NCBI RefSeq assembly: GCF_010091945.1
Contig: NZ_WVIE01000011.1
Coordinates: forward strand, 62,001-126,000
Reading direction: 5' to 3'
Length of the DNA stretch: 64,000 bases
Source of the DNA: Myxacorys almedinensis A
GTDB lineage: Bacteria; Cyanobacteriota; Cyanobacteriia; Leptolyngbyales; Leptolyngbyaceae
The notes under the pieces were generated by a model. The model was not told where the DNA came from. It did no database searches and saw only the letters and a list, made by a program, of their open reading frames with translations. Shown here one piece after another: positions 48,272 through 63,740 of this stretch; position 1 is the stretch's first letter, and the number at the start of each line of letters is the position of its first letter. The translations under genes and the position numbers were made by a program.

Positions 48272-49335
48272 ACACCTGAATTGCTTTGTACAGGAGAAAG
48301 TAGAAGCTTGGGAAGTTGCTCTAGTATCAGAGAATCGGCGATCGGACCACCAATCACGCTCCCCCACAATTGGTAATCAACAAAGTGTACTCGCCCTTCT
48401 CTCCATGCGCGAGAATTCTGCAAGAGAGGATTTTTAGCCCATTTTTGTTTGAGTTCTTCTAATGGAACATTGTAAGTGGATTTGCCATCCCAATCATCAA
48501 GCCAAGTTTGGACAATGATAATATCTGCATCAAGTTGGGATAGTGTTTCAATGGTGACTTGAGGTCGCACTCCTGACCTTCGTTCCACATCTTTAAGCAA
48601 CACAGATTGAAACCCAATTTCTTCGAGAAGTTGAACCGAATCTCCACTGTAGCTAATTTCAATATAGTCCATTGATTGGTTGCAAACTACAGTTAGCACT
48701 CGCGGGTGACTGTTGACAAGCGGGGCTAATTTAGTGCGAACTTCAGCCAGATGTTGTTTGTGCGAGGCAATAACTTGTTGCACATTGTCTTCACGGTGGA
48801 GCGCTTTAGCCAAAATCTGAATGTTTTCTTGCCAATTTTCCTCCTTGTTGTCGATTAACACAGTCGAGGCAATAGCAGACAATAGCTTACTTTCCTGAGA
48901 TTTCATTCCCAGGATCAAATCTGGCTTGAGTAAAGTCAAACTTTCCAACGAGGGATTATTACGATCGCCTAAATTAATCGGCTGACTTGTGACAAACTTA
49001 CCCAAGTAAGGAATCTGTTTACTAGGGTTGTCAAATTGGCGCGATCGCACCAAATAAGCGTCTGCATAAGCAGAGGGCTGGGCATCAAGCGCCAGCATCA
49101 TACTGAGCAACTTTGGTTCTAATGCAGCTATTTTTTGGGGTTGCCCACAAATCGTGGTTTCACCGCCAGCGTGCTTCACGGCTCGGCAATCAGTAGATGG
49201 TGATTGGCTACTATCTAAATTACGGCTGTTGGGAATACCACTTTGACAAGCCGTAATTAAGATAACTGTGACAATGACTAAACCAATGTATCGATGCAGA
49301 GAAAGTCTCACCTGGCGGCGAAATTCAAAGAACAT
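48268..49335 (-). CDS. Iron-siderophore ABC transporter substrate-binding lipoprotein (unit 1)
   Basis: 355 aa. N-terminal signal with hydrophobic core YIGLVIVTVILI and lipobox ITAC, so a lipid-anchored periplasmic protein. The FecB/FhuD (class III SBP) fold is shown by KIAALEPKLLSMMLALDAQP, LTLLKPDLILGMKSQ, LSQLDADIIIVQTW and a long connecting helix. It delivers ferric siderophore to an ABC importer, but no permease or ATPase gene is within the window. The ATG at 49335 has a ribosome-like GAAAGAG; the ORF extends three codons further. Strongly similar to the gene at 59763-60821. Confidence 0.9.
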   Translation of the reverse strand: MFFEFRRQVRLSLHRYIGLVIVTVILITACQSGIPNSRNLDSSQSPSTDCRAVKHAGGETTICGQPQKIAALEPKLLSMMLALDAQPSAYADAYLVRSRQFDNPSKQIPYLGKFVTSQPINLGDRNNPSLESLTLLKPDLILGMKSQESKLLSAIASTVLIDNKEENWQENIQILAKALHREDNVQQVIASHKQHLAEVRTKLAPLVNSHPRVLTVVCNQSMDYIEISYSGDSVQLLEEIGFQSVLLKDVERRSGVRPQVTIETLSQLDADIIIVQTWLDDWDGKSTYNVPLEELKQKWAKNPLLQNSRAWREGRVHFVDYQLWGSVIGGPIADSLILEQLPKLLLSPVQSNSGV

Positions 49336-49361
49336 TATCAACACTCTTTCGTTTATTAAAG

Positions 49362-51917
49362 TCAGAACTGCATAGAAAAGGAGCCGATGACCGTGAAAGG
49401 CGCGCCGGGATAAATTATATTTCTGCCTTGAGCAGTCTCATAGTAAGTTTCATTAAAGAGATTGCGGAAATTTAGGGCTAACTTCCAGTTATCTCGTTTG
49501 TAATAGATAGCTGAATCTGCTCTAAAATAGCTGGGCAGAATGCTGGTATTATCCAAGTCGGCATTTCTATCTCCCACGTAGTAAAGTCCTAAACCAAACC
49601 CCAAACCCTTTAAATTACCGTTTTGAAGTTCATAGCTTGTCCATAAGCTAGCAGCGTGTTCGGGAACATTAATCAGCCCATTGCCTACAGGAATGTTGTT
49701 ATCTTCTGAGGTAATCGCATCAATATAGGCGTAAGAGGCGATGATGTTCCAACCTGGAAGAATCTCACCGCCAATGTCCAATTCAATACCTCTACTTCTT
49801 TGTTCCCCCACCTGTATAGATAAATCTGGATCGTTGGGATCGGGGGTGACAACATTAGTTTTGGTAATCTGGAAGGCTGCTAGGGTTGCCGAAAGTCGTT
49901 GGCTAAGGTCTGCTTTAATACCCACTTCATACTGTGTCCCTCTTGTTGGCTCGAAGGGATCGTTTGTTGCCGAGCGACCGAGAAATCGATCAGGTTGAAA
50001 TGATTGAGTGTAGCTGGCATAGAGAGAAACTGGTTTAATGGGCTGGTAAACAATACCAACACGAGGACTAAAGGCTGTGAGAGATTCTTCTTCAGGTGTT
50101 CCGAAGTCATCTCTGCGGCGGAAAGCATCAAAGCGACCCCCGACTAAAAGCTTGAGATTGTCTGCAAACGTAATTTGATCTTGAAGATAAATTCCTAGAG
50201 TATCTCTGCGCGTTGTGTAAGAGAACGTTTGTTCATCAGGTATAGCAGGAAAATCAACATCATAATTCGGATTGAAAATGTCTAGCAGTATAGGGTCTGC
50301 CACATCGAACGAGGTATAAGCCCAGTCATTTCTTCTTAGCTCTACCCCAAGCAAGGGTTGATGAACAATCGATCCCGTCTTGAACCGTCCTACTAATTCC
50401 GTTTGCAGGGTATAGATCTTTCGTGAGAAGTCGTCGCGACCGACATAAATTGGAGCAAATTGGTCATTTTCTAGCCCATAGCCTCCAATGGCATAAGTCC
50501 CTGCCGATTGACCAGACACAAACGAAAACCCATTACGAAGTCGCCAGTCTTCGCTAAATTGATGCTCAAGTCTGTAGCCAACCCGAAAAGTGCTATCGTC
50601 ATAAACGCTTTGCGGCAGACCGATGAATCGACTAATGGGGATGGGAGCAGGTCTATCTCCAAGGGATGGAAGTCCGCGATCGAAGAGGTAAGTATTGTTC
50701 TGATATTCAAGGTCAAAGGTTATTGAAGTGCGATCGCTAATATTCCAGGTAATTACAGGCGCAATAAATACACGTTCGGTAAAGTTAAAATCTCGGAAAC
50801 TTTCAGCATTTTGATACGCCACATTCAGCCGATATAACAACGAACCATCATCAGTGAGCGGTCCAGAAATATCAAAACTGGGGCGATAGAAAGCATAATT
50901 GCCGACATTAAATTCAGCTGAATAATAGGGAGTGCTAAGGGGTTGTTTTGTGACAACATTGATAATTCCTCCCGGTTCAGCTTGACCAAATAGAACAGAA
51001 GCCGGTCCTTTGAGGACTTCTATTCGCTCGATATTTGCTGTATCTACTGAAGAGTAAAAGTCATTGTCAGAAAATCCATTGCGGAAATTTCCATCCTGAG
51101 CAAAGCCACGAATATTGTATCCGCCCGCATCTGTACCTCCGTAGTTCCCCTCTTTGCGGACACCACTGACATTCTCCAACGCCTCTTGAATCCGCGTTGT
51201 CTTCTGGTCTTCTAATATTTGACGCGGAATAACTTGAATCGAACCAGGAATATCCCGGATTGGGGTATCAGTTCTAGTCGCAGTCGTCGCATTCGGCACT
51301 CGATAGCCTTGTTGCCCTTCTCCCGTCACCACAATTTCTTCATCGGGTTCATCGGCTTCCGGGTTGAGGCTGTAAGCAAACTCGCCTGTCTTCAACGTCA
51401 CCTCTGACTTTGGCAGCGCATTGTTGCCACTCACACTGACTCGAATTGTAGTTGCGTCCTGTTGAGTCACACGTACCGAGGCAATATCAGGAGCCGGGTT
51501 TTCTGCGCTAAATGCTTGATCATTAGAGAGCGCCAGGACTGCGTTCGGAATCTCTGCAATCAAGCGATCGCTTTCAGTGCGAAAGTTTGTCGCATCGACT
51601 TGCAAAGGCTTACCCTCTGCGGTTTCTAGAGTAATTTCTAGCCCAGAGTCTAGGCGATTGAGGGTCACTCCTGTCACTTGAACCGTAGCGGCTTCGATTT
51701 GCGCCGTCCACTCTTTAATCGTAGTGGCGGGGCGATCGCGGCGTAAGTTTGCAGAAGAACCTTGCTGCTGCAACGAACGAACCTCCATAACCGAGGCTGC
51801 GGATCGATCTACTGTTTCAACTTCCGCCGCTCTTCCCGGTAATGCAAACCCACTCGACAGCACGACCAGCAAGCCGTAAAGCTGAATATTGCCCATCTGT
51901 TGCGAAACCTTGCTCAT
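49362..51917 (-). CDS. TonB-dependent siderophore receptor with AMIN domain (unit 1)
   Basis: About 850 aa, outer membrane. Signal peptide (QLYGLLVVLSSGFALPGRAAE), an AMIN domain (residues about 80-190: VTGVTLNRLDSGLEITLET), a linker with the DEEIVVTGEG TonB-box-like sequence, the plug domain (DIPGSIQVIPRQILEDQ ... LKGPASVLFGQAEPGGIINV), and a 22-strand barrel ending in the aromatic terminus (TVIGSFSMQF). The plug sequence is of the FhuA/FecA-like siderophore type. The frame also permits a GTG at 51926 and an ATG at 51896; conservation with the paralogue supports the ATG at 51917. Probably co-transcribed with the binding protein. Confidence 0.93.
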   Translation of the reverse strand: MSKVSQQMGNIQLYGLLVVLSSGFALPGRAAEVETVDRSAASVMEVRSLQQQGSSANLRRDRPATTIKEWTAQIEAATVQVTGVTLNRLDSGLEITLETAEGKPLQVDATNFRTESDRLIAEIPNAVLALSNDQAFSAENPAPDIASVRVTQQDATTIRVSVSGNNALPKSEVTLKTGEFAYSLNPEADEPDEEIVVTGEGQQGYRVPNATTATRTDTPIRDIPGSIQVIPRQILEDQKTTRIQEALENVSGVRKEGNYGGTDAGGYNIRGFAQDGNFRNGFSDNDFYSSVDTANIERIEVLKGPASVLFGQAEPGGIINVVTKQPLSTPYYSAEFNVGNYAFYRPSFDISGPLTDDGSLLYRLNVAYQNAESFRDFNFTERVFIAPVITWNISDRTSITFDLEYQNNTYLFDRGLPSLGDRPAPIPISRFIGLPQSVYDDSTFRVGYRLEHQFSEDWRLRNGFSFVSGQSAGTYAIGGYGLENDQFAPIYVGRDDFSRKIYTLQTELVGRFKTGSIVHQPLLGVELRRNDWAYTSFDVADPILLDIFNPNYDVDFPAIPDEQTFSYTTRRDTLGIYLQDQITFADNLKLLVGGRFDAFRRRDDFGTPEEESLTAFSPRVGIVYQPIKPVSLYASYTQSFQPDRFLGRSATNDPFEPTRGTQYEVGIKADLSQRLSATLAAFQITKTNVVTPDPNDPDLSIQVGEQRSRGIELDIGGEILPGWNIIASYAYIDAITSEDNNIPVGNGLINVPEHAASLWTSYELQNGNLKGLGFGLGLYYVGDRNADLDNTSILPSYFRADSAIYYKRDNWKLALNFRNLFNETYYETAQGRNIIYPGAPFTVIGSFSMQF

Positions 51918-51939
51918 CTTCCCCACACCGCCGCCTAAC

Positions 51940-51954
51940 TAAGAACTATTCTTA
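51940..51954 (-). promoter_or_regulatory. Fur-like palindrome upstream of receptor 1
   Basis: TAAGAA-CTA-TTCTTA, a perfect 6-3-6 palindrome, starts 14 bp upstream of the open reading frame's first codon (51926). The other unit has a palindromic A/T-rich block at the corresponding place. An iron-responsive Fur operator is plausible, but the match to the classical consensus is partial. Confidence 0.4.
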
Positions 51955-52003
51955 AGAAGGTACTGGAAGACGGTCTAGAGTAGTCGATCGTAACTGTTCC
52001 CAA

Positions 52004-52032
52004 ACGGATTTTTTTGCTGTCTAGACGGATTT
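52004..52032 (-). promoter_or_regulatory. 21-bp-spaced direct repeat, proposed AraC/PchR operator 1
   Basis: Two copies of AAAAAATCCGT on the minus strand (ACGGATTTTTT at 52004 and 52025), exactly 21 bp apart, upstream of receptor 1. The distal copy overlaps the 3' end and stop of the preceding araC gene. Identical spacing occurs upstream of receptors 2 and 3. Confidence 0.6.
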
Positions 52033-53007
52033 TTTGCTGAGCAGGTAGGACTTTGGATTCACGCCAAACTGTTTACGGAAGGCTTCTGCAAAGCTACTTG
52101 GGCTGGCATACCCTACGGTTTGAGCCACTTCTCGAACATTCATGCGCCCCTCAGCAAGCAATTGTCGTGCCGTTTCCATCCGATGCTGATGCAGATAGCC
52201 AAACACAGTGGTGCCAAAGACCTGCCGAAACCCTGTTTTGAGCTTGAAATCGTTTAACCCCACCTGACGGGACAGTTCCATCAGCGACGGGGGATTATCG
52301 GAATGCTCAGCCATAATATTTTTGGCTAGATGAATGCGATCGATATCATCTAGGTTTAACGAGCAAGATGAATTTCGAGGAGATCGTCCCGGCTCTTTAA
52401 GCTGCTCTAGTTTCAATGCAATCAACTCCAAGCACTGACCCTCTAGATAAATTTGTCTCGTTCTTCCTTGAAAGGAGCAGTGTAAAATTTTCTCTAACGT
52501 CGATCGCATTGCCGGTGTGATTACATTCGCCTCATCAAAACACGGCTCATCACTGTCTTCAACACATCGTCTAATCTCGATTGGCAGTTCTTCTAAACTC
52601 TCGGCGATGAGTTGAAATAAAGTGGCTGGAGCCTCTAGGTCGATGTCTACCTTCAGAATGGGTTCGTTAGCATAGGTTATTGACGTATCCGTTGCTTCAT
52701 AGGCTCCCCACTCTAAAAAACTCTCGCCAGTTCGCTTACGGTGTCGATTTCCTGATAGGTTAAATCCAAATTCCCACGATGCCCCAACCCCTTCATCTTC
52801 AATAACGTACAAATCATGGTGCAGATGATAATTAAATAGGCTCAGATCGATTCCCCGAAACTGAATCGTGCGAATGTATCCCTCTCCCAACTGCTCAGGT
52901 ATCACCTCGACTCGCTCACAGTAGCCTGAGTGCTGCGACACTAGGGGAGTAGGGTTGCATTCTTTCCACAACTCGTCGTAATCTGTACGGGAAATCGTAA
53001 TCGCCAT
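52021..53007 (-). CDS. AraC-family regulator, PchR-like (unit 1)
   Basis: 328 aa. An N-terminal ligand domain (residues about 1-220) with the PchR-like GFNLSGNRHRKR and a C-terminal double helix-turn-helix: LMELSRQVGLNDFKLKTGFRQVFGTTVFGYL and VREVAQTVGYASPSSFAEAFRKQFGVNPKSY. PchR-type proteins bind ferri-siderophore and activate their receptor genes. It precedes receptor 1, whose operator-like direct repeat overlaps this gene's end. Its own promoter at 53059-53087 is shared in sequence with the second araC gene, showing duplication. Both HTH motifs are complete. Confidence 0.9.
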   Translation of the reverse strand: MAITISRTDYDELWKECNPTPLVSQHSGYCERVEVIPEQLGEGYIRTIQFRGIDLSLFNYHLHHDLYVIEDEGVGASWEFGFNLSGNRHRKRTGESFLEWGAYEATDTSITYANEPILKVDIDLEAPATLFQLIAESLEELPIEIRRCVEDSDEPCFDEANVITPAMRSTLEKILHCSFQGRTRQIYLEGQCLELIALKLEQLKEPGRSPRNSSCSLNLDDIDRIHLAKNIMAEHSDNPPSLMELSRQVGLNDFKLKTGFRQVFGTTVFGYLHQHRMETARQLLAEGRMNVREVAQTVGYASPSSFAEAFRKQFGVNPKSYLLSKKSV

Positions 53008-53058
53008 GATAAAGTTAGGGACAATTTGCCAGAAAATTCGCTGCTTCTAATGCAACTT

Positions 53059-53087
53059 ATTCTCAGCTGAACTGAGTCAGCCGTCAA
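53059..53087 (-). promoter_or_regulatory. Promoter of araC gene 1 (conserved with gene 2)
   Basis: Minus strand: -35 TTGACG, 17-bp spacer, -10 GAGAAT, inside a block of about 45 bp conserved upstream of the other araC gene (58187-58215). The -10 with the following AAGTTGCATTA may also be a Fur-type site. Confidence 0.5.
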
Positions 53088-53285
53088 GTGTTTCACGCCG
53101 CAATGCGCCATTAGCGAGACTGTTGTTGAGCTTGCCAAAGTGATGCGTAGCGATCGCCGCCTTCATCAGTTCTACATCAGTTCCTTCATCTAGCAGCACG
53201 ATCAGTGCATCTTTGAGAATGGCGCGGACAATCGAAAGGTTTTCAGCGTTAACGTGTTTCGTGAGTTTTTGGTTGAGATCTTCGC
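53077..53285 (-). other. Coding-like frame without a start codon
   Basis: After the stop of the ICMT-like gene a different frame reads SEDLNQKLTKHVNAENLSI, then LKDALIVLLDEGTDVELMKA and HHFGKLNNSLANG up to a stop at 53077. It looks like real protein sequence but has no ATG/GTG/TTG and no recognised family. It may be the 3' end of a deleted gene. It overlaps the araC promoter. Confidence 0.35.
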
Positions 53286-53870
53286 TTAAAACAGGTAAGG
53301 AATGAGTCGGTTGGTTTGCTGCACATAAGCTTGATATTGATCTCCAAATTGATCCAGCATCATTTGTTCCTCGTTGCCAATTCGAGCAACATAGAGAATG
53401 CCAAAGGAGATGATTCCCGCTAAACCTGCAATCCAGTTTGGCAGCAACAATGCCTGAGCAACCCCCCACAACCAAATAGAGGTATACATTGGATGTCGAA
53501 TCGTTTGATAGATCCCATTAGTAATTAGAGTGTGCCCCTCTCTGATCTGTAAAGTTGGCGACCAGTTTTCTCCTAGATCACGATGAGCGCGCCAAAACAA
53601 CCAAAGCCCAATCGCAAAAGATAAAACGCCTAATCCATTCGCCCAGAGGGGTAGCTCGTAGTCTGCAAACCTGAGCCAGGGTGAAAAAACATAGAGTAGA
53701 GGGAGAACAAACATGCCTAAAAAGACCAACAAGAGTAGCGTTTTTTCCAGAGGTGTTTTGCGATCGTCCGCGATCGTGTTCTGTTTATTTTTCCGTTGGT
53801 GAGGTAAGCGAATGGCAGTACTGGCAGCTAATCCAATTAAGTAAATAATCTTCAGTATCACGGTATCCAT
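53286..53870 (-). CDS. Isoprenylcysteine carboxyl methyltransferase (ICMT)-like membrane protein
   Basis: 194 aa with five or six membrane helices and the ICMT/PEMT signature in the C-terminal half: RAHRDLGENWSP, HTLITNGIYQTIRHPMYTSIW and NEEQMMLDQFGDQYQAYVQQ. These bind SAM at the membrane. Bacterial members methylate lipids or unknown small molecules; isoprenylcysteine substrates are unlikely here. It is 14 bp after the PepSY gene on the same strand and belongs to the receptor-2 unit. Confidence 0.83.
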   Translation of the reverse strand: MDTVILKIIYLIGLAASTAIRLPHQRKNKQNTIADDRKTPLEKTLLLLVFLGMFVLPLLYVFSPWLRFADYELPLWANGLGVLSFAIGLWLFWRAHRDLGENWSPTLQIREGHTLITNGIYQTIRHPMYTSIWLWGVAQALLLPNWIAGLAGIISFGILYVARIGNEEQMMLDQFGDQYQAYVQQTNRLIPYLF

Positions 53871-53884
53871 TAGATTTACCTTTC

Positions 53885-54394
53885 CTAGTTAACCCGAAAC
53901 GAACTCACAAAGAGATAAAAACCACTGATGACTAGAATCAGGGTCAACAGCGCTGAAGGCAGCTTAATTAAGTTGCCAACCCAGGGGTGTAGCCATCCGA
54001 GAAACCCCTTTTGTTGCAAAAAATTGCCTGCATTGAAACCGTATTTCAGTACCTTTCCTGTGTGAGCATCCATAAACCACTCAAAAAATCGCTGGTGATT
54101 CTCAAACCGATAAACTTGAATCAAGGGCAAGTAAGCGATTTCGTCGATCTGGTTTGCAACTGCTGGCGAATGCGCCATGAGGATGCGGGTTGCTTGCTCA
54201 CGAGAAAGGACGGTGCTGGTATTTGCTGCGGTAGGCTCAGGTGGAAGTTCATCAATAATTGGCAGACCAGCACTGAAAACCCTGGGCACTGCGATCGCTT
54301 CAATCACCCAGATTAAAGTTAATCCGATTACATACAGTCCAACCCAACGATGCAACCGTCTTGCTAGTTTAATCAACCATTGTGGATGCCTCAT
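53885..54394 (-). CDS. PepSY-domain membrane protein
   Basis: 169 aa. An N-terminal membrane helix (LHRWVGLYVIGLTLIWVIEAIA), a periplasmic PepSY-type domain (residues about 50-125: LSREQATRILMAHSP, QVYRFENHQRFFEWFMDAHTGKVL), and a C-terminal helix (LPSALLTLILVISGFYLFV). The arrangement resembles PepSY-associated proteins next to TonB receptors, some of which are thought to be inner-membrane ferric-siderophore reductases, although this short form lacks the heme-type His set. Located 17 bp after receptor 2, thus a member of that operon. Confidence 0.82.
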   Translation of the reverse strand: MRHPQWLIKLARRLHRWVGLYVIGLTLIWVIEAIAVPRVFSAGLPIIDELPPEPTAANTSTVLSREQATRILMAHSPAVANQIDEIAYLPLIQVYRFENHQRFFEWFMDAHTGKVLKYGFNAGNFLQQKGFLGWLHPWVGNLIKLPSALLTLILVISGFYLFVSSFRVN

Positions 54395-54411
54395 TGCACC
54401 TCTCCTAAGAT

Positions 54412-57000
54412 TTAAAACGCTGCTTTCACTTGGATTCCGAACATTCTGCGATCGCCATAAGTTCCAACGGCTTGGGGAGGCGGAAAGAAGTACGCTGAAG
54501 TTACATACTCTGTATTCAATAAATTCATAGCAAATAAATAAATTCCCCAGTTACTATTTTCATATCCAATCCGAGCATTCACCAACGCAAACGGATGTTG
54601 TTTGAGTTGATTACCATCATCAAAGAAGTATTTTCCTACCCCTTGAAGATCCAATCGAGCAAAAATTCCCCTAACACTGCGATATTGCAAGGCTAGGTTA
54701 TAGGTGAAATTGGGTGCCAAGGTGAGCCGATTACCGTTAAAGTTTTGACCTGTAAATGGATTCGTATAATCGGTAAACTTAGCATCTGCATAGCCAAAGC
54801 CCGCAATCACATCCAGCCCCCGAACGGGTGTTGCTTTGATCTCCAACTCTACTCCGCGAATCCGAGCTTCAGCATTGGCAACGTTTGAAAATGCGCCCGT
54901 ATTATCCGGGAGCAGCACTTGATAGTTATCCAAGTGGTTGCTAAATGCTGCCAGATTGACGGTGAGTCGATCGTCAAGCCAGGACGACTTGAATCCCAAT
55001 TCATAATTCCAGGACGTTTCCGAGGCAAAAGTCAGCAGATTGAGTGATTCCGCCTGAGAGTTGAAACCACCCGGTTTATAGCCTCGTGTAATACTGCCAT
55101 AAGCGCTCACATTCGGATTAAACCGATATTGCGCGGCAAAACGCGGTAGCCAAACCCGATCGCTGGTTTCTACATCACTCACACTCAAACCCGTTGGAAC
55201 TTTTAGGGACGTTCCAGCAACTTCTAGGTTGCGTTGTCGAGTAATGCGGCTTGTGGTCGATTCGTAGCGCAATCCAGCCGTCAAGGTGAGGGGTTGAATC
55301 GGAGTGTAGTCTACCTGACTAAATGCTGCATAGGTGGCTTGATTGGTATCGGCATCTGCGCGGTCAAATCCGGCAAAGGGTAAGCCAAAGGCGGCGGCAC
55401 CCAGATCACTGAACTGAAGCCCAGACCCCAACACTCTAAACGCTCTTGACTCGAAATATCCCCCAAAGAGCCAGCGCAATTGATTGGCATCTTCAGGCGA
55501 TTGAATCCGCAACTCCTGGCTCCAAAGGGTTGAGTCAAATTGTGCTTTCCGCCGAATCAAATCGAGCGATGTAAAATCAGAGTCGATCGGGTTGTCTTGG
55601 AACGTAAATCGACGGGTGGTAATAGCAGTGGCGCGAAATTTAGGTCCATCGTAGGCAATTTTCAATGCCTGAGTGTTGGTGCTGACCTGGTCGAAGCCAT
55701 TGAAGTCATAGTCAATTTTGAACGGATCGGATTGATTGAGGGGAACGAGGATAGTGCTGCCATGATCGCTATAGCTAGCATTTGCATTGAACGAAACAGA
55801 CCATTCCTGATCAGGAGTCCAGAGAATTTGAGCGCGCCCAGATAGACTTGATTTTTCACCCACATTTTCGTTGGTGAATGTGTTTTCAGTAAAGCCATCT
55901 CGCGCAATATAAGCCCCAGCTAGCCGAAAGAATAGGCGATCGGGGATTACTGCATCACTCAAAGACAATTGGAGATTACGATTGTTGGAACTGCCATACC
56001 CGACTAAGGCTCTCACCTCCGGATCATTACTAGGAGAACGGCTAATGATATTGACGACTCCAGCTTGAGAATTTCTGCCATAAAGCGTACTTTGCGGACC
56101 CCGCAACACTTCTACCCGTTCTAAATCAAACAGAGGCACATCAATAAAGCTCGTATAGTCATAAGGCACATCGTCAATGTAGAATCCAACTGCGTCACGA
56201 GCAGCAAAGTTGCTGTTTCCCAGTCCTCGAATACTGTAGTTCAAGAAATTGCCGCTCCCTTGAGGCAGCGCAAAGAAGTTGGGGGTGTTCGCCGCTACAT
56301 CACTAAATGAGTCGATTTGAGCATCCTCAATCGCTTGCCTGGGAATTGCTGTGATACTGATGGGGATGTCCTGCGGATTCTCTGGACGCTTCTGTGCTGT
56401 GACGATGACTTCTTCCTCTGGTTCTACTGCCGACACGCTGAGAATCAACCCTGACTGACTTTGAACGATTCTGCCATCGGGAACATCATCAATTCCAACA
56501 ATGCGAATTTGAATGCTATTAGAATTGCTCCGTTCAACACTAATCGAAGCGATGCCTGCGATCGGATTATCTTGCCGAAACTCCTTACCATCGGCTAATT
56601 GAGCATTGGGAATCAGGACGATCAGGGTATTTCCATTCACATCCGCTGTCCCCTGAAGCGCTTTACCTGCATCCGTTTCTAGAACCACCCTCAACTCACC
56701 TTCGACTGAATTCAGCCTTACACCCGTTACTCGCACGGGTGCCGCGCCTTCTTCTTGCTTTCCGGTTTCTGCTTCCTCTGCCTGAGACAGCCATTGCTGC
56801 ACAGTAGATGCAGGACGGTGGAGGTCGTTGATATGAGGTACTTTTGTCTCTCCCTCAATGTTCTGGATAACGGTCTGAGCCAAAGCCGACTGAACTATCA
56901 GCAATCCAATCAAAGAAATAAGAGAGCCGCCACTGATTTTGCAACAAGCGCAAAGTAAACCTCTGTTCACACCACTCTCCTCAACAACACCGTTCTGCAT
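54412..57000 (-). CDS. TonB-dependent receptor with AMIN domain (receptor 2)
   Basis: 862 aa, outer-membrane transporter of a subtype different from receptors 1 and 3. Signal helix ISLIGLLIVQSALAQ, AMIN domain (residues about 90-190, VTGVRLNSVEGELRVVLE), TonB-box-like EEEVIVTAQKRPE, plug ISITAIPRQAIEDAQ ... LRGPQSTLYGRNSQAGVVNI, and a barrel ending in an aromatic residue (GIQVKAAF). The plug is of the colicin-I/iron-catecholate (IroN-like) group. Its PepSY and ICMT-like companions follow downstream. An AraC-type direct repeat (57051-57079) precedes the gene. Confidence 0.92.
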   Translation of the reverse strand: MQNGVVEESGVNRGLLCACCKISGGSLISLIGLLIVQSALAQTVIQNIEGETKVPHINDLHRPASTVQQWLSQAEEAETGKQEEGAAPVRVTGVRLNSVEGELRVVLETDAGKALQGTADVNGNTLIVLIPNAQLADGKEFRQDNPIAGIASISVERSNSNSIQIRIVGIDDVPDGRIVQSQSGLILSVSAVEPEEEVIVTAQKRPENPQDIPISITAIPRQAIEDAQIDSFSDVAANTPNFFALPQGSGNFLNYSIRGLGNSNFAARDAVGFYIDDVPYDYTSFIDVPLFDLERVEVLRGPQSTLYGRNSQAGVVNIISRSPSNDPEVRALVGYGSSNNRNLQLSLSDAVIPDRLFFRLAGAYIARDGFTENTFTNENVGEKSSLSGRAQILWTPDQEWSVSFNANASYSDHGSTILVPLNQSDPFKIDYDFNGFDQVSTNTQALKIAYDGPKFRATAITTRRFTFQDNPIDSDFTSLDLIRRKAQFDSTLWSQELRIQSPEDANQLRWLFGGYFESRAFRVLGSGLQFSDLGAAAFGLPFAGFDRADADTNQATYAAFSQVDYTPIQPLTLTAGLRYESTTSRITRQRNLEVAGTSLKVPTGLSVSDVETSDRVWLPRFAAQYRFNPNVSAYGSITRGYKPGGFNSQAESLNLLTFASETSWNYELGFKSSWLDDRLTVNLAAFSNHLDNYQVLLPDNTGAFSNVANAEARIRGVELEIKATPVRGLDVIAGFGYADAKFTDYTNPFTGQNFNGNRLTLAPNFTYNLALQYRSVRGIFARLDLQGVGKYFFDDGNQLKQHPFALVNARIGYENSNWGIYLFAMNLLNTEYVTSAYFFPPPQAVGTYGDRRMFGIQVKAAF

Positions 57001-57050
57001 TTGGGATTATTGAGAAGAATAAGCATTAAACACTTTGTCTGCAACTCCAC

Positions 57051-57079
57051 GGTGGAGAGTTTTAGCTCCCAGACGGAGA
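57051..57079 (-). promoter_or_regulatory. 21-bp-spaced direct repeat, proposed AraC operator 2
   Basis: Minus strand TCTCCGTC (57079-57072) and TCTCCACC (57058-57051), 21 bp apart, in the 89-bp gap between araC gene 2 and receptor 2. The half-site differs from that of units 1 and 3 (AATCCGT), consistent with a different AraC protein. Confidence 0.5.
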
Positions 57080-57089
57080 ACCATAGGTT

Positions 57090-58106
57090 CTAAAGCAACT
57101 TTCCGTTGAGTCTGTAAGACGTTGGAGTAATTCCAAATTTTTTCTTAAAAGCACCGGAAAACTTGCTTGCATTGGCGTAACCAACCGTTTGCGAAACCTG
57201 AGTAATACTCATCCGACTGGTTTCTAGTAATAACCGCGCCCGTTCCATCCGGTACTCGTGTAAGCATCCGAACACTGTCGTACCAAAAACTTGGTGAAAA
57301 AGTTGCTTTAACTTGAAGTCGCTCACACAGACGTGCTTTGCCAAAGCAAGCACGGATGGAGGAGCATCGGCATGGCGGAGCAGAATTTCTCTAGCTTGGT
57401 GAGCGCAGTCAATATCGCTGGATTTCAACTGGAGCGTTTTTTTGAGATGGGTTGGTTCATGGGTGAGTTGGTCATACTTGAGTGCGATCAGTTCTAATGC
57501 TTTACTTTCCAGATAGAACCGTCTGATCATCCCTTGGTAAGGGCAGTTCAGAATTTGGTGAAGCGCGATCGCCATCGCAGGCGTGGTTGATCCTGTTTGC
57601 CAGTGAAACCCTGATTCATCTCCCCTGAGAGTTCGCTCTATAGGGGTGGGAAGCGAGGATAATTGCCAATCTGTAAGCGCTCTAAGTTGGTGCGGTGTCA
57701 TACTGATCTGAACTAAAGATATTTTTTGTCCAGCAGCCAACTCTGTGACTGCCTTATCCTCGCCATGCATTACTCCGAAATGACTATCGCCAGACTTAGC
57801 AACCAGATCCGATCCCGAACGGTGAAACGTTCCCCTAAAACGCCCAGACAGACAAAAGCTAAATCCGGCTGAGGAATAAAGTTGTGTTTCCGTCAGCAAA
57901 CTCAGATGCTCTTGTAGTTCCCACTCGGTGATATGTAGCTCAAATTTATCCCACGGATCGAACCAGCGAATCGACCAGCGACCAAATGGCTGGGATAGCT
58001 GGAATGACGTTTCATAATTCTGTACCTGACAGAGGGTGCCTGTCTGTAGCTGCAATTCCTCCAACAACTCTTGAATATTGCTGTAAGAGAGGGAAAGTTT
58101 CATCAT
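57090..58106 (-). CDS. AraC-family regulator, PchR-like (unit 2)
   Basis: 338 aa with N-terminal sensing domain (FSFCLSGRFRGTFHRSGSDL) and double HTH: VLALAKHVCVSDFKLKQLFHQVFGTTVFGCL and ITQVSQTVGYANASKFSGAFKKKFGITPTSY. It is a paralogue of the regulator at 52-53 kb; the upstream promoters are near identical. It probably controls receptor 2, PepSY and ICMT-like genes in response to a ferric siderophore. The start may be the first or second of two adjacent ATG codons. Confidence 0.9.
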   Translation of the reverse strand: MMKLSLSYSNIQELLEELQLQTGTLCQVQNYETSFQLSQPFGRWSIRWFDPWDKFELHITEWELQEHLSLLTETQLYSSAGFSFCLSGRFRGTFHRSGSDLVAKSGDSHFGVMHGEDKAVTELAAGQKISLVQISMTPHQLRALTDWQLSSLPTPIERTLRGDESGFHWQTGSTTPAMAIALHQILNCPYQGMIRRFYLESKALELIALKYDQLTHEPTHLKKTLQLKSSDIDCAHQAREILLRHADAPPSVLALAKHVCVSDFKLKQLFHQVFGTTVFGCLHEYRMERARLLLETSRMSITQVSQTVGYANASKFSGAFKKKFGITPTSYRLNGKLL

Positions 58107-58186
58107 TGAAAATAGGGAGGTGGATGCCGCGTAACTGAGATAGGGTTAGGGATGAGTTTCTAGAAACGCGAATTTTAATGCAACTT

Positions 58187-58215
58187 ATTCTCAACTGAAG
58201 CGAGTTAGCTGTCAA
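58187..58215 (-). promoter_or_regulatory. Promoter of araC gene 2 (conserved with gene 1)
   Basis: Minus strand: -35 TTGACA, 17-bp spacer, -10 GAGAAT, in a block of about 45 bp shared with the promoter of araC gene 1. Confidence 0.55.
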
Positions 58216-58256
58216 GTGTTTGAGATCTGCCTGCGCCATCAAATCGAGTTCCGGGC

Positions 58257-58304
58257 GAGGTGCCTGAAGCAGCGCGATCGCAAACAGAAACTTTCTCCCT
58301 GGAG
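58257..58304 (+). pseudogene. Scrap of a DUF4351 C-terminus (1)
   Basis: Reads EVPEAARSQTETFSLE, matching EVPEGMRSQIETFSLE of the Rpn-like pseudogene at 46.9 kb. Only 16 codons remain, within the leader region of xisH. Confidence 0.55.
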
Positions 58305-58371
58305 ACACGCAAGCGTCAGCAACGGCAATGGGCGTGATAATCTAAATTGTCCTTTTGCTAAAGAATCACCC

Positions 58372-58785
58372 GTGAGCGCGAAGGATCTCTTTCACGATGC
58401 TGTTAAGCAAGCACTGATTCGAGATGGATGGGTCATTACAGATGATCCGCTAGTGGTTCGCTATGGTCCGACCAACCTCAAGGTCGATTTAGGGGCAGAG
58501 CGTATCATTGCCGCACAGCGAGAGACTGAAACCGTTGCGGTAGAAATCAAGAGTTTTCTTGATCCGAGTGCCGTGAATGATTTTCATACGGCTGTAGGGC
58601 AATATCTCCACTACCAACTTGCCTTTAATTACAACCAGTGGAGCCGAAAGCTCTACTTAGCGGTTCCCAAAGAGATTTACGATACCCAATTCGAGAAACC
58701 TCTTTTCCGGGACAGTCAGACTTATCGAATTAGAATTTTGGTGTACAGCACTGAAAATCAGGAGATTTTGACATGGATCGATTAG
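58372..58785 (+). CDS. xisH: XisH-family protein (endonuclease-like)
   Basis: 137 aa. The GTG at 58372 is chosen because SAKDLFHDAVKQAL is the normal XisH N-terminus; the longer frame from 58216 runs through relic DNA. The sequence shows a PD-(D/E)XK-like core: KVDLGAERIIAAQ, then TVAVEIKSFL with the E-x-K, and HTAVGQYLHYQLAF. XisH, together with XisI, was identified as a factor needed for fdxN element excision in Anabaena, but the families occur in many copies genome-wide and are suspected to be a toxin-antitoxin-like or nuclease pair. It overlaps xisI by 13 bp. Confidence 0.9.
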   Translation: MSAKDLFHDAVKQALIRDGWVITDDPLVVRYGPTNLKVDLGAERIIAAQRETETVAVEIKSFLDPSAVNDFHTAVGQYLHYQLAFNYNQWSRKLYLAVPKEIYDTQFEKPLFRDSQTYRIRILVYSTENQEILTWID

Positions 58786-59108
58786 AGCAATACCGAAACA
58801 TTGTCAAGCAGGTTCTTCAACATTACTACACCCTCTATAAGCGAATGCCAGACGCAGACACAACAATGGTGTGTGACCCCACCTCCGACCAGTATCAGGT
58901 GATTCAGACGGGATGGGATGCTCAGCAACGCAGAATCTACACCACTCTGCACCTATCGCTCAAAAATGGAAAAATTTATATTCATAGCGATCCCACCGAA
59001 GAGGGGGTGGCAAACGCTCTAATTGGGGAAGGAATTCCTAAAACGGATATTGTGCTGGAATATCAGACTCCAACATTCAGGAAGCATTCGGAATTTGCTC
59101 AGGCTTAG
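58773..59108 (+). CDS. xisI: XisI-family protein
   Basis: 111 aa of the usual XisI length: MDRLEQYRNIVKQVLQHYY, YQVIQTGWDAQQRRIYTTLH and IGEGIPKTDIVLEYQTPTFR. It begins 13 bp before the end of xisH, as is usual for the pair. Both frames are intact, whereas the DNA on both sides is full of Rpn/DUF4351 scraps, so the pair behaves as a mobile module. Its biochemical function is not known. Confidence 0.9.
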   Translation: MDRLEQYRNIVKQVLQHYYTLYKRMPDADTTMVCDPTSDQYQVIQTGWDAQQRRIYTTLHLSLKNGKIYIHSDPTEEGVANALIGEGIPKTDIVLEYQTPTFRKHSEFAQA

Positions 59109-59111
59109 CGC

Positions 59112-59143
59112 GGTTCCTGTGGAGTTGCGCTTTGCGCTAATCG
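59112..59143 (+). repeat. Small dispersed repeat, copy 3
   Basis: 32-bp copy of the repeat found at 33249 and 47106, located 3 bp after the xisI stop. Confidence 0.7.
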
Positions 59144-59234
59144 TGCTTATCCTGTTGATTAAGTTTGCGTAGAAATGCCCTATTTCTGAAAATTCTGCGA
59201 TCGCGGCGGCTACAGAATTCTCAAAAAGGTTGCG

Positions 59235-59351
59235 CGATCGCAAATTGAAACTCTCTCCCTAGAACAGCTAGAGTCATTGGGTGAGGCGCTGTTGGAGTTT
59301 GAGACGATCGCAGATTTGGAAGCTTGGCTGCAAGGCGATCGCGCAAGCTGA
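59235..59351 (+). pseudogene. Scrap of a DUF4351 C-terminus (2)
   Basis: Reads RSQIETLSLEQLESLGEALL, then LEAWLQGDRAS-stop, nearly identical to the end of the Rpn-like pseudogene at 46150-47096. No upstream domain is present. Confidence 0.7.
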
Positions 59352-59380
59352 GGGGGAGAGCGATCGCGCTTGCTGACTGA

Positions 59381-59758
59381 TCACAGAAGCACCGTCGGGA
59401 TTTGAACCAAGGTGGCAGATGGAAACAGGTCGTGGAGTTTTTTGTAGGGAAATTCTCCGGTGTCATGGTTGATGTACTGCTGCATGAAGTCTAGTAGTGG
59501 GGCGGCAGTTTCATCGGGGGGCAGATCGGTGATCAGGTAGGTTGGTTTCTCTGGGCTGGAAATGGCGATGACACAACCGTGCTTACACGCCCACATGCAA
59601 CCTACAGACTGGATTTCTAGTTGTAATGATGAAAAACTTTGCCTGGATAAGGTATTGAGTCGCTCAAATAAACGAGTGCCATAACTTGGTTGGCTTTCTG
59701 ATATGTTTCCGTCTACACAGTAGCAGTATTTACAAACGGAGTGTGTGTGTTTAGTCAT
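59381..59758 (-). CDS. DUF1636 metal-binding, ferredoxin-like protein (unit 3)
   Basis: 125 aa, very similar to the protein at 47915-48271 and with the same Cys pattern (CKYCYC and GCMWACKHGC), in a thioredoxin-like ferredoxin fold. It ends QIPTVLL, seven residues longer than its paralogue. It follows the siderophore-binding protein gene with a 4-bp gap. Supposed role in handling iron released from siderophore is inferred from constant linkage. Confidence 0.82.
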   Translation of the reverse strand: MTKHTHSVCKYCYCVDGNISESQPSYGTRLFERLNTLSRQSFSSLQLEIQSVGCMWACKHGCVIAISSPEKPTYLITDLPPDETAAPLLDFMQQYINHDTGEFPYKKLHDLFPSATLVQIPTVLL

Positions 59759-59762
59759 ACAC

Positions 59763-60821
59763 CTAAATTGCTTTGGGAGGAGAAAGTAGAAGCTTTGGGA
59801 GTTGCTCTAGTATCATGGAATCCGCGATCGGACCACCAATCACGCTCCCCCACATTGCATGATCAACAAAGTAGACTCGACCTTCTTTCCAAGCTCGTGA
59901 ATAGTGCAGCAGCGGATTTTTAGCCCATTTTTGTTTGAGTGCCTCTAGCGGGACACTATAGGTCGAATTGCCATCCCAATCATCTATCCAAGTATGGACA
60001 ATGATAATATCTGCATCAAGTTGGGATAGTGTTTCAATGGTGACTTGAGGTCGTACTCCTGGTTTCCGTTCCACATCTTCAAGCAACACAGATTGAAACC
60101 CAATTTCTTCAAGGAGTTGAACTAAATCCCCACTGTAGCTAATTTCAATGTAGTCCATTAATTGGTTGCAAACTACATTCAGCACTCGCGGGTGAGTGTT
60201 GGCAAGCGGGGCTAATTGAGTGCGAACTTCAGCAAGCTGTTGTTGATGTGAGGCAATGACTTGTTGTACATTGTTTTCTCGATGGAGTGCTTTAGCTAAA
60301 GTTTGAATGTTATTTTGCCAAGTATCTGCCGTGTGGTCGATTAGCACAGTCGGAGCAATAGCAGACAATAGCTCATTTTCCTGGAATTTCATTCCCAGAA
60401 TCAAATCCGGTTTAAGTAAAGTCAGAGCTTCCAGTGAGGGATTGTTACGACTACCTACGCTAATAGGTTGATTTGTGACAAATTGACCTAAGTAAGGAAT
60501 TTGCTGACTGGGATTGTCGAATTTACGCCCATTGAACGAACCTGAATCCGCATAAGCAGAGGGCTGCACATTAAGCGCCAGCATCATACTTAGCAACTTT
60601 GGTTCTAGTGCAACTACTTTCTGAGGTTTACCGCAAATCGTGGTTTCACCAACTGCGTGTTTCACAACTCGACAATCAGTGGATGTTCCTTGCACATTCT
60701 CCAAATTCGGTCTATTGGGAACACCACTTTGACAAGCCGTAATTAAGATCACTGTGACAATGACCAAGCCAATGTATTTATGCAGAGAAAGTCTCATCTG
60801 GCGGCGAATTTTGGGAAACAT
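59763..60821 (-). CDS. Iron-siderophore ABC transporter substrate-binding lipoprotein (unit 3)
   Basis: 352 aa from the ATG at 60821 (AAAGAGCG upstream), chosen to match the paralogue at 48268; the frame opens ten codons earlier. Lipobox ITAC, class III binding-protein fold with VVALEPKLLSMMLALNVQP, LTLLKPDLILGMKFQ and LSQLDADIIIVHTW. High similarity to unit 1 shows a segmental duplication covering receptor, binding protein and DUF1636. No permease or ATPase is adjacent. Confidence 0.9.
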   Translation of the reverse strand: MFPKIRRQMRLSLHKYIGLVIVTVILITACQSGVPNRPNLENVQGTSTDCRVVKHAVGETTICGKPQKVVALEPKLLSMMLALNVQPSAYADSGSFNGRKFDNPSQQIPYLGQFVTNQPISVGSRNNPSLEALTLLKPDLILGMKFQENELLSAIAPTVLIDHTADTWQNNIQTLAKALHRENNVQQVIASHQQQLAEVRTQLAPLANTHPRVLNVVCNQLMDYIEISYSGDLVQLLEEIGFQSVLLEDVERKPGVRPQVTIETLSQLDADIIIVHTWIDDWDGNSTYSVPLEALKQKWAKNPLLHYSRAWKEGRVYFVDHAMWGSVIGGPIADSMILEQLPKLLLSPPKAI

Positions 60822-60847
60822 GATGAACGCTCTTTTGTTAATTAAAG

Positions 60848-63460
60848 TCAAAACTGGATAGAAAAAGAGCCGATGACTGTGAAAGGTGCGCCAGGATAAA
60901 TGATGTTTCTGCTTTGAGACGTTTCATAATAAGTTTCGTTGAAAAGATTCCTGATATTGAGTCCTAATCTCCAGTTATCCCGCTTGTAATAGATGGCGAA
61001 ATCAGTGCGGAAATAGCTGGGCATAATGCTGGTATTTTCCAAGTCGGCGTATCTATCTCCCACATAGTAAAGTCCCAAACCAAAGCCCAAACCTTTTAAA
61101 TCACCGCTTTGTAGTTCATAGGTTGTCCACAAACTTGCAGCGTGTTCGGGTACATTATTGATGCGATTACCAACAACAACTCTATTGTCTTTTGAGGTAA
61201 TTGCATCGGTGTAAGTGTAAGATGCAATGATATTCAAACCTGGCAGAATTTCGCCGCCAATATCTAATTCAATACCTCTACTTCTCTGTTCTCCAACCTG
61301 CACAGATAAATCTGGATCGTTGGGGTCAGCAGTGACCACATTAGTTTTGGTAATTTGGTAGGCTGCTAGGGTTGCTGAAAGTTTTTCGCTGATATCTGCC
61401 TTGATACCAACTTCGTATTGCGTTCCTCTTGTTGGTTTAAAGGGTTCGTTTGTTGCCGAACGACCAAAAAAGCGATCGGGTTGAAACGATTGAGTGTAGC
61501 TGGCATAGAGGGAAATTGGTTGAATTGGTTGATAAACGATCCCAACACGGGGATTAAAAGCACTGAGGGATTCTTCACCCGTTGTTTCTCCCAGTTCTGT
61601 TTGTTTTCGTTGGAAGGTATCAAAGCGACCACCAACTAAGACCTTGAGATTATCTGCAAAAGTAATTTGATCTTGGAGGTAAATTCCCAAGGTGTCTCTA
61701 CGAGTCGTGTAAAAGTAAGCTTCATCAGATATGGCAGGTAAATCAACATCATAATTGGGATTAAAAATGTCTAGCAGTATGGAGTCTGCCGCGCCAAATC
61801 CTGTATATTCCCAAGTGTTTCGTCTTAATTCCACCCCAATTAAAGGTTGATGGACAATCGATCCCGTCTTGAACTTTCCAACTAGTTCTGTTTGCAGGGT
61901 ATAGATTTTTCGTGTGAATTCTTGACGATCTATAAATATTGGAGCAAACTGGTTGTCAACCAGCGCACGGCCACCACTTGCAGAATCACCAGTTAATCGA
62001 CCAGACACAAAAGAAAAGGCATTGCGAAGTTGCCAGTCCTGACTGAATTCATGCTCCAGTCTATAGCCAACCCGCAAATTGCTATCGTTATAAACACTTT
62101 CCGGCAGACCAATGAAGCGACTAATGGGGATGGGGGCAGGTCTGTCTCCAATGGAAGGAAGTCCCCGATCGTAGAGGTAATCATTGTTTAGATATTCAAG
62201 GTCGAATGTTAATGAAGTGCGATCGCTAATATTCCAGGTAATTACAGGCGCAACAAAGACACGTTCGGTAAAATTAAAATCTCGAAAACTCTCAGAGTTT
62301 TGATAAGCCACATTCAGCCGATATAATACCGAACCATCATCTGTGAGTGGCCCAGAAATATCAAAACTGGGGCGATAAAACGCATAATTGCCGACATTAA
62401 ATTCAGCTGAATAATAGGGAGTGCTAAGGGGTTGTTTTGTGACAATATTGACAATTCCTCCCGGTTCAGCCTGACCAAATAGAACAGAAGCCGGCCCTTT
62501 GAGAACCTCAATGCGATCGATGTTTGCTGTATCTACCGAAGAGTAAGAGTCATTGTCAGAAAATCCATTGCGGAAATTTCCAGCTTGATCGAAGCCACGA
62601 ATATTATATCCACCGGCATTTGAACCTCCGAAGTTATCTCGTTTGCGTACACCGCTGACGTTTTCCAAGGCTTCTTGTACGCGCGTCGTCTTTTGGTCTT
62701 CTAAGATTCGACGCGGGATCACTTGAATCGAAGCGGGAATATCACGCAATGGGGTATCAGTCTTAGTTGCGGTGGTTGCATTGGGCACACGATAGCCATT
62801 TTGCTGACCCGTCACCACAATTTCCTCATCCGGCTCATCCACTTCCGGGTTGAGGCTATAAGCCAGTTCCCCAACTTTCAGCGTCACCTCAGAAGTCGGC
62901 AGCTTACCCGTTCCCGCCACACTAACTCGAATCGTGTTGGCATCCTGTTGGGTCACGCCTAAAGTCGCAATATCTGGAGTCGGATTCGCAGCACTAAATC
63001 CTGGAGCATTGGGGAGAGCCAGCACCGCATTGGGAATATCGGCAATCAGGCTGCTACCTTCCGTCCGAAACTTCGTCGCATCCACCTGGAGCGGTTTACC
63101 TTCCGCCGTTTGCAGCACAATTTCCAGTCCGGTATCGGTACGGTTGAGGCTCACACTTGTCACCTGTACAGTAGCGGCTTCAATCTGCGCCATCCATTCT
63201 TTAACGGTAGTGGCGGGGCGGGGGCGATCGCGAAAATGAGACACAGTTGCTTGATCCGCAAGTCTTGATCCCCCTAAATCCCCCTTGAGAAGGGGGACTT
63301 CAAGCCGCTGTTCAGTTCCCACCTTTTTAAGGGGGGTTAGGGGGGATCTCTCTTCTGCCCTCCCCGGCACTGCCAACCCACTCACCAAACTTCCGGTTAA
63401 AGCAGCCATCAAGCCATAAAATCGGACTTTGCCCATCTGCTGCAAACCTACTCTGCTCAT
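60848..63460 (-). CDS. TonB-dependent siderophore receptor with AMIN domain (receptor 3)
   Basis: About 870 aa, paralogue of receptor 1. Signal peptide (FYGLMAALTGSLVSGLAVPG), AMIN domain (VTSVSLNRTDTGLEIVLQ), DEEIVVTGQ TonB-box-like segment, plug DIPASIQVIPRRILEDQ ... LKGPASVLFGQAEPGGIVNI and barrel ending TVIGSFSIQF. Just after the signal peptide it has about 27 extra residues (SPLTPLKKVGTEQ...PLLKGDLGG) that are encoded by an inverted-repeat element inserted in frame (63267-63348). GTG at 63469 and ATG at 63436 are alternative starts. Confidence 0.93.
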   Translation of the reverse strand: MSRVGLQQMGKVRFYGLMAALTGSLVSGLAVPGRAEERSPLTPLKKVGTEQRLEVPLLKGDLGGSRLADQATVSHFRDRPRPATTVKEWMAQIEAATVQVTSVSLNRTDTGLEIVLQTAEGKPLQVDATKFRTEGSSLIADIPNAVLALPNAPGFSAANPTPDIATLGVTQQDANTIRVSVAGTGKLPTSEVTLKVGELAYSLNPEVDEPDEEIVVTGQQNGYRVPNATTATKTDTPLRDIPASIQVIPRRILEDQKTTRVQEALENVSGVRKRDNFGGSNAGGYNIRGFDQAGNFRNGFSDNDSYSSVDTANIDRIEVLKGPASVLFGQAEPGGIVNIVTKQPLSTPYYSAEFNVGNYAFYRPSFDISGPLTDDGSVLYRLNVAYQNSESFRDFNFTERVFVAPVITWNISDRTSLTFDLEYLNNDYLYDRGLPSIGDRPAPIPISRFIGLPESVYNDSNLRVGYRLEHEFSQDWQLRNAFSFVSGRLTGDSASGGRALVDNQFAPIFIDRQEFTRKIYTLQTELVGKFKTGSIVHQPLIGVELRRNTWEYTGFGAADSILLDIFNPNYDVDLPAISDEAYFYTTRRDTLGIYLQDQITFADNLKVLVGGRFDTFQRKQTELGETTGEESLSAFNPRVGIVYQPIQPISLYASYTQSFQPDRFFGRSATNEPFKPTRGTQYEVGIKADISEKLSATLAAYQITKTNVVTADPNDPDLSVQVGEQRSRGIELDIGGEILPGLNIIASYTYTDAITSKDNRVVVGNRINNVPEHAASLWTTYELQSGDLKGLGFGLGLYYVGDRYADLENTSIMPSYFRTDFAIYYKRDNWRLGLNIRNLFNETYYETSQSRNIIYPGAPFTVIGSFSIQF
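63267..63348. repeat. Palindromic intergenic-type repeat inserted in frame in receptor 3
   Basis: 82 bp with near-palindromic ends: GATCCCCCTAAATCCCCCTT at one side and AAGGGGGGTTAGGGGGGATC at the other, plus an inner CCCCCTT/AAGGGGG. Such G/C-run palindromes are common between cyanobacterial genes. Here it keeps the frame open and is translated; receptor 1 lacks it at the equivalent place. Confidence 0.75.
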
Positions 63461-63473
63461 CTTCCACACACCA

Positions 63474-63504
63474 CTTGAGAGTCTTAATCATAATCACTCT
63501 CAAG
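63474..63504. promoter_or_regulatory. Operator-like palindrome upstream of receptor 3
   Basis: Perfect 9-bp inverted repeat CTTGAGAGT ... ACTCTCAAG around the A/T-rich core CTTAATCATAATC, which resembles half of a Fur box. It lies just upstream of the start region, at the same distance as the palindrome of receptor 1. Confidence 0.5.
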
Positions 63505-63551
63505 AGGATACTGGAAAACAGAGAGGCGTGGTTGAGCGCGATCGCTCATAG

Positions 63552-63580
63552 ACGGATTATTTTGACCCATAGACGGATTT
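63552..63580 (-). promoter_or_regulatory. 21-bp-spaced direct repeat, proposed AraC/PchR operator 3
   Basis: TAGACGGATT at 63550 and 63571 (minus strand AATCCGTCTA), repeat distance exactly 21 bp, 80-100 bp upstream of receptor 3. The half-site matches that of receptor 1, suggesting the same regulator although no araC gene adjoins this unit. Confidence 0.6.
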
Positions 63581-63740
63581 TTTGGATGGATTTAGAACCA
63601 CGATCGCGTTAGCGACTCAACGAGCAAATCGGTTGCAATCTCAATCACCCTAGGGCTAATTCGTTGTCGTAAGAACCTTTGGTTGGCAACGGACGCTATC
63701 AAAACCCGTTGCCAATCTTTCTCCATGCGGCGATTTCACA

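Follow-up and report, generated by a model that had tools for sequence, protein, structure and literature searches.

In AraC from E. coli, the operator araI1-araI2 is formed by two direct half-sites about 21 bp apart, located upstream of the -35 box, and each subunit provides a pair of helix-turn-helix (HTH) motifs. AraC-family regulators of the CdhR/GbdR/SouR/ArgR type recognize direct repeats of GGTCGC with a 15-bp spacer (i.e., a 21-bp period), leave a 34-bp DNase I footprint and exert class I activation (PMC5806209). Closer to the locus presented here are PchR and the PchR-box of Pseudomonas aeruginosa, where PchR is activated by ferric pyochelin (Michel et al. 2005, as cited in PMC9774294), and YbtA, whose repeat sequences have been described as pseudo-palindromes (PMC8725597). 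The closest are IutR1-3 (Sll1205, Sll1408 and Slr1489) from Synechocystis sp. PCC 6803, PchR-like AraC activators of TonB receptor genes that bind directly to the receptor promoters, according to gel shift, one-hybrid and ChIP-seq data, IutR1 being described as a global regulator (PMC11221513). In a single cyanobacterium, the TonB receptors may number in the tens, and the siderophores that they serve are for the most part unknown; a rule linking regulator residues to operator bases would allow the regulator of each iron receptor to be predicted.

The locus lies in a stretch of 64,000 nucleotides (the window) of the genome of Myxacorys almedinensis A. Receptor 1, a TonB-dependent siderophore receptor (49362..51926), and receptor 2 (54412..57000) combine AMIN, Plug and β-barrel domains according to Pfam and TIGR01783, and so does receptor 3 (60848..63469) according to Pfam; the three are encoded on the minus strand. 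Upstream of them, regulator 1 (52021..53007, minus strand, 328 aa) is assigned to the PchR/IutR-like AraC family by the Pfam HTH_18 domain, a structure model and the covariation presented below, and regulator 2 (57090..58106, minus strand, 338 aa), with SDFKLK in its first HTH (HTH1), belongs to the same family. For receptor 3, a separate regulator (regulator 3), 70% identical to regulator 1, is encoded upstream, just outside the window (window-equivalent 65083-66072). Regulators 1 and 2 carry two AraC-type HTH motifs (HTH_18, E values of 5.8e-22 and 2.6e-22), and the adjacency of regulator and TonB-dependent siderophore receptor genes is that of the PchR/IutR siderophore-regulator group. The structure model of regulator 1 places HTH1 at residues 242-264 and the second HTH (HTH2) at 291-314, and structure searches mainly returned AraC-family proteins (ToxT, Rns and CsvR). 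The DNA-binding domain alone superimposes well on them (rmsd about 2 Å), but the full-length proteins do so poorly (rmsd 16-19 Å), which makes the domain arrangement uninformative and supports no claim about the ligand. The genome encodes about 25 regulators of this kind and shows 28 Plug-domain matches; in genomes G169 and G189 the family reaches 62 first-look candidates each. Regarding the surroundings, near-duplicate cassettes at 47915-51926 and 59381-63469 encode a TonB receptor, a Peripla_BP_2 binding protein and a DUF1636 ferredoxin-like protein; a repeat-like palindromic stretch (ccccctaaatcccccttgagaaggggga ... aaggggggttagggggg, 63265-63350) lies in frame within the N-terminal region of receptor 3 and has no counterpart in receptor 1; and the space between regulator 3 and receptor 3 holds, in opposite orientation, a small Uma2-nuclease-like gene (L090:4514-5080, window-equivalent about 64.5-65.1 kb).

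A pair of direct repeats with a period of exactly 21 bp precedes each of the three receptors, at the positions that the initial annotation had given. On the minus strand, which is the coding strand of regulators and receptors, the pairs read AAAAAATCCGTCTAG/AAAAAATCCGTTTGG (receptor 1), TCTCCGTCTGGGAG/TCTCCACCGTGGAG (receptor 2) and AAAAAATCCGTCTAT/AAATAATCCGTCTAT (receptor 3). The predicted operator of receptor 1 (51994..52035) is composed of two 21-bp half-sites, AAAAAATCCGTCTAGACAGCA (52035-52015) and AAAAAATCCGTTTGGGAACAG (52014-51994), with a profile E value of 3.7e-8 and a score of 44.1 with the family matrix introduced below. That of receptor 3 (63542..63583), with AAAAAATCCGTCTATGGGTCA (63583-63563) and AAATAATCCGTCTATGAGCGA (63562-63542) also spaced by 21 bp, reaches a profile E value of 1.8e-7 and a matrix score of 38.5, and these two sites are the only ones in the window with high matrix scores. 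The half-site AATCCGT proposed earlier for receptors 1 and 3 is indeed shared and 21 bp apart, but the repeated unit is longer, about 21 bp. For receptor 2, a probable, degenerate operator (57042..57083, minus strand) is found directly 3' of the stop codon of regulator 2, with half-sites TGGTTCTCCGTCTGGGAGCTA (57083-57063) and AAACTCTCCACCGTGGAGTTG (57062-57042) and the same spacing. Its matrix score is only 1.9, a level shared by dozens of background positions, and its designation as an operator thus relies on the self-repeat (10/14) and on its position. The reading of this half-site as a wholly different one is not supported, since its first copy contains TCCGTCT, in common with receptors 1 and 3; it can be classed as a degenerate member of the family. 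Within the coding sequence of regulator 1 (52056-52036), displaced by 21 bp to the 5' side of the receptor 1 operator, there is a weak third copy (AAAGTCCTACCTGCTCAGC), and three copies are also present at another regulator of this genome, L037.

Is the 21-bp period a property of the whole family? A motif-free scan, measuring self-similarity at each lag from 12 to 45 in the regions upstream of TonB receptors (cut-off, at least 12 of 14 matches), retrieved nine regions of the same genome at lag 21 and six at lag 22, with at most two at any other lag. Among 85 non-identical receptor upstream regions of other cyanobacteria (79 named loci), lag 21 was found in 26 and lag 22 in 14, each remaining lag accounting for at most two. 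This defines 21 bp as the main mode and 22 bp as a second one, and the exact 21-bp spacing once put forward as a rule has to be relaxed accordingly: 21 is the commonest value, but 22 bp is common elsewhere in the family. The underlying idea, that each receptor is preceded by a predicted AraC-family operator of two direct half-sites separated by two helical turns, is upheld by its conservation across cyanobacteria, the same spacing and core recurring in promoters from many genera.

The genome-wide search for ATCCGT-N15-ATCCGT suggested in that annotation returned exactly four matches in 4.96 Mb, more than expected by chance: the window sites of receptors 1 and 3, a third between another TonB receptor and the AraC-type regulator preceding it, immediately 3' of the regulator's stop codon, and a fourth 5' of an ABC exporter pair. 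Allowing one mismatch abolished the enrichment in this genome (29 matches vs 30 in the control), which means that searching with the short consensus is insufficient and only a longer motif is informative. Across 390 genomes, TCCGTYT-N14,15-TCCGTYT gave no usable enrichment either, because the reversed control matches low-complexity repeats, and tests based on genomic context were used in place of the raw pattern count. A matrix trained on 107 receptor promoters yielded the half-site consensus AAAAAnTCCG(T/G)(C/T)TAG and detected a pair of half-sites in 80% of them; among 251 other upstream regions from the same loci and among shuffled sequences, the proportion was 3.2% and 0.2%, respectively. 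About 20% of the receptor promoters are thus left without a recognizable box. In a ten-fold cross-validation that accepted any lag from 16 to 45 and kept the site positions from the full training, 85/107 held-out promoters were matched, 54 of them with a lag of 21 and 23 with one of 22, compared with 2/535 shuffles.

Since the receptor 1 and receptor 3 cassettes are close paralogues, the repeats could be thought of as functionless remnants copied together with the receptor cassettes, by local duplication or shared ancestry. This is hardly credible: the TCCG core and the spacing are kept in non-identical promoters from many genera that show no other similarity, the phase is held at 21-22 bp, and, while conservation extends to about base 20 of each half-site, the upstream positions outside the half-sites are not conserved. 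Copied remnants of a cassette duplication were rejected as a candidate for that reason, the core and the spacing being conserved where the promoters otherwise differ. The boxes are not confined to receptors, either. Out of 91 strong boxes in long loci, 81 stand before a TonB receptor and 10 elsewhere, six of the latter preceding a gene for an exporter-type ABC transporter, which such remnants would not lead one to expect. In a sequence-profile scan of the Myxacorys genome, 22 sites had E<0.02; most were receptor promoters already in hand, and the new ones examined included several before ABC exporters and two beside decayed or unclear ORFs. The boxes before ABC exporter genes (G000:C25:50025, C11:69448, C84:189056, C36:6051 and C8:107454) indicate that the regulon probably includes pumps for siderophore export or import.

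The placement of the boxes with respect to their surroundings is also constrained. The TAG stop codon of regulator 1 (52021-52023) lies within half-site 1 of receptor 1, and this arrangement is recurrent: the TCCG of half-site 1 is found exactly 6 bp before the regulator stop codon in 20/77 pairs and in 20/80 new pairs, by far the commonest offset. In these boxes, the TAG of TCCGnCTAG is the stop codon itself, and the regulator typically ends in Ser-Val/Ala/Gly. About eight further regulator-receptor pairs of this genome bear an insert of about 700-950 bp between the regulator stop codon and the box (box offsets of 718-961 bp). On the downstream side, an inverted Fur-like box preceded by a -10-like element stands 52-55 bp from the second TCCG in 61/73 promoters. 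For receptor 1, the putative promoter (51938..51964, minus strand) consists of the -10-like AGTACCTT followed by the Fur-like box CTTAAGAATAGTTCTTAGT, 52 bp from the TCCG of half-site 2; for receptor 3 (63486..63512, minus strand), of AGTATCCT and CTTGAGAGTGATTATGATT, at the same 52 bp. This fixed distance is the pattern that an activator site would show; a -10 role is suggested by resemblance, and Fur would be expected to bind the Fur-like box. The latter type of box is also detected upstream of half of the regulators of the genome, vs 5% of shuffles. A shared element, TAATGCAACTTATTCTCA(G/A)CTGAA, which resembles half a Fur-like box, precedes regulators 1 and 2 (about 53040-53095 and 58165-58225, respectively).

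The coexistence with Fur-like boxes, together with the fact that cyanobacterial TonB receptors are under the control of several iron regulators, raises the possibility that the repeats bind another protein, such as a Fur-type repressor or a global regulator, the AraC genes being nearby by coincidence. We consider this very improbable. The Fur-like box, an inverted element, is distinct from the repeats and located 52-55 bp further downstream, on which ground the repeats were ruled out as part of a Fur box, and the letters of the half-sites track the recognition-helix residues of the adjacent AraC protein, a correspondence that another binder would not explain. In particular, the base that precedes TCCG varies jointly with a pair of adjacent residues where the first recognition helix starts (MI z=17.9; 80 regulator-box pairs in 53 clusters). 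The resulting rule was fixed before new genomes were fetched: Y/F followed by K corresponds to A, T in second place to T, R in first place to G, and C/H/N followed by K to C. On 71 new regulators of assignable class, it was correct for 128/142 half-sites (permuted mean 49, maximum 75), and for 26/28 (permuted mean 9.4, maximum 22) where the nearest training HTH was less than 65% identical. With precedence given to R, a refinement introduced once the RT cases had been seen, 272/292 half-sites of the combined set agree with the rule. Relatedness was controlled by matching regulator pairs for overall HTH identity, leaving out the two code residues: at 65-75% identity, pairs of the same class shared the base in 799/811 comparisons, and those of different class in 20/925. 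A strict tree-based test of independent pairs contained one supported pair, too little supported branching to be informative, and it is consequently the held-out set and the comparison at matched identity, rather than a resolved tree, that speak for the independence of the covariation. In a Synechocystis-like genome, one receptor box has G before TCC, in agreement with the prediction for its R-K regulator, and a second receptor has a degenerate G-bearing copy and adjoins an R-T regulator. At L336:5469-6487 of this genome (G218), a regulator of the family is split into two overlapping ORFs, and its operator and receptor look intact.

A second correspondence concerns HTH2, where a recognition-helix residue tracks bases 13-16: Tyr goes with AGC/AGT, Arg with G at 15 and Ser with AA at 15-16. 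The corresponding residues in the regulator 1 model, F254-K255 and S305, are near the starts of the two recognition helices, and F254 aligns with W36 of SoxS, a residue at the DNA interface. These positions suggest an orientation with the first HTH on TCCG and the second on the 3' side, nearer the promoter. Taken as a whole, the covariation strongly supports the adjacent AraC regulator as the binding partner of the repeats.

This adjacency modifies the pairing initially proposed, in which regulator 1 served receptors 1 and 3. As receptor 3 has its own regulator beside it, the assignment of regulator 1 to receptor 3 is unsupported as the primary one. Cross-talk between both systems may nonetheless occur, because regulators 1 and 3 fall in one HTH1 class (FK/YK, corresponding to ATCCG). 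Could, then, receptors 1, 3 and others be driven by regulator 1 alone or by a handful of global IutR-like proteins, with the same operator and binding mode and just a different wiring? Both boxes read ATCCG, and in gel shifts IutR1 from Synechocystis bound the promoters of three receptors (PMC11221513). Against this stand the regulator adjoining receptor 3, the difference in HTH2 (S305 in regulator 1 vs H), where the residue correlates with bases 13-16 throughout the family, and the matched comparisons, in which the box letters follow the adjacent regulator. We regard shared control as rather unlikely. The other proposed pair, regulator 2 with receptor 2, fits by position but breaks the code, in that A is predicted and C observed, an exception shared with one other F-K regulator of this genome.

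Our preferred reading, which we hold to be very probably correct, is that the repeat pairs are the operators of PchR/IutR-like AraC-family activators, in general of the activator whose gene lies immediately 5' of the receptor gene. The sequences themselves display the repeats, their spacing, conservation and enrichment, the covariation and the fixed promoter geometry; that the regulator binds, that it activates rather than represses, which ligand it responds to and that Fur also binds are points that we infer. Two regulator subunits would be arranged head-to-tail at a distance of 21 (or 22) bp, with one half-site AAAAAnTCCGnCTAG(n)GnnCA for each; the first HTH would read n-TCCG and the second the 3' portion (around CTAGc/g), which is nearer the promoter. 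Once bound, the activator would occupy roughly -85 to -44 relative to the -10-like element that precedes the Fur-like box. Each regulator would most likely activate its own receptor under low iron, transcription requiring both the release of Fur and an activated regulator. The signal would probably be the ferric siderophore imported via the receptor itself, in a self-reinforcing loop like that of PchR and pyochelin; both the ligand and the direction of control are deduced in this scheme. The two HTH1 residues would set the base before TCCG (R in first place giving G; otherwise, T in second place giving T; Y/F plus K, A; and C/H/N plus K, C), which would let tens of paralogous regulator-receptor pairs per genome differ in specificity. 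Furthermore, with the operator often within the last codons of the regulator (Asn/Lys-Ser-Val/Ala/Gly-stop), regulator, operator and receptor would be tied as one cassette.

In a broader sense, it seems reasonably probable that the cyanobacterial PchR/IutR regulators (about 25 here and up to 62 first-look candidates per genome) constitute a naturally diversified, near-orthogonal set with a two-helix operator code and an operator often placed in the stop codon, where the regulator travels and diverges together with its operator and siderophore receptor as a unit, and whose specificity and regulon may be read from the sequence. A recognizable operator plus a residue-to-base rule would provide a map from regulators to targets for any cyanobacterial genome, extend the predicted regulon to ABC exporters and offer a large natural data set on DNA recognition by the AraC family.

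Compared with AraC from E. coli, the half-site is another one and the ligand of AraC is a sugar; besides, AraC is not known to have an operator within its stop codon, unlike the regulator 1 cassette. The direct half-sites and the 21-bp period are shared with the CdhR type, this geometry being known for AraC-family activators, but CdhR-type regulators have a different half-site, a GATase-1 sensor domain and a role in carnitine/betaine metabolism. The likeness to PchR lies in an AraC-type regulator adjoining a siderophore receptor and, putatively in the present case, paired with Fur control, while large paralogous sets of regulators and receptors and a recognition code are not described for PchR or YbtA in these sources. 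With the IutR proteins, the resemblance includes the regulator upstream of the receptor, membership, by annotation, of the same PchR-like AraC group, and the box that the Synechocystis-like genome carries at one such receptor (AAAAAGTCC..., spacing 21). The main text of PMC11221513 gives three HOMER motifs and, within that text, no footprint, direct-repeat geometry or residue-base code; the operator proposed here would add a concrete predicted site for IutR, so far known from gel shift and ChIP-seq motifs. Searches of an open-access library found, for the cyanobacterial PchR/IutR regulators, no earlier description of a direct-repeat box with a 21-bp period or of this operator sequence, nor of its overlap with the stop codon or of a recognition code. 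All in all, the repeats appear to be a real operator of a known kind, the AraC-family direct repeat, whose sequence, placement and readable specificity are apparently new.
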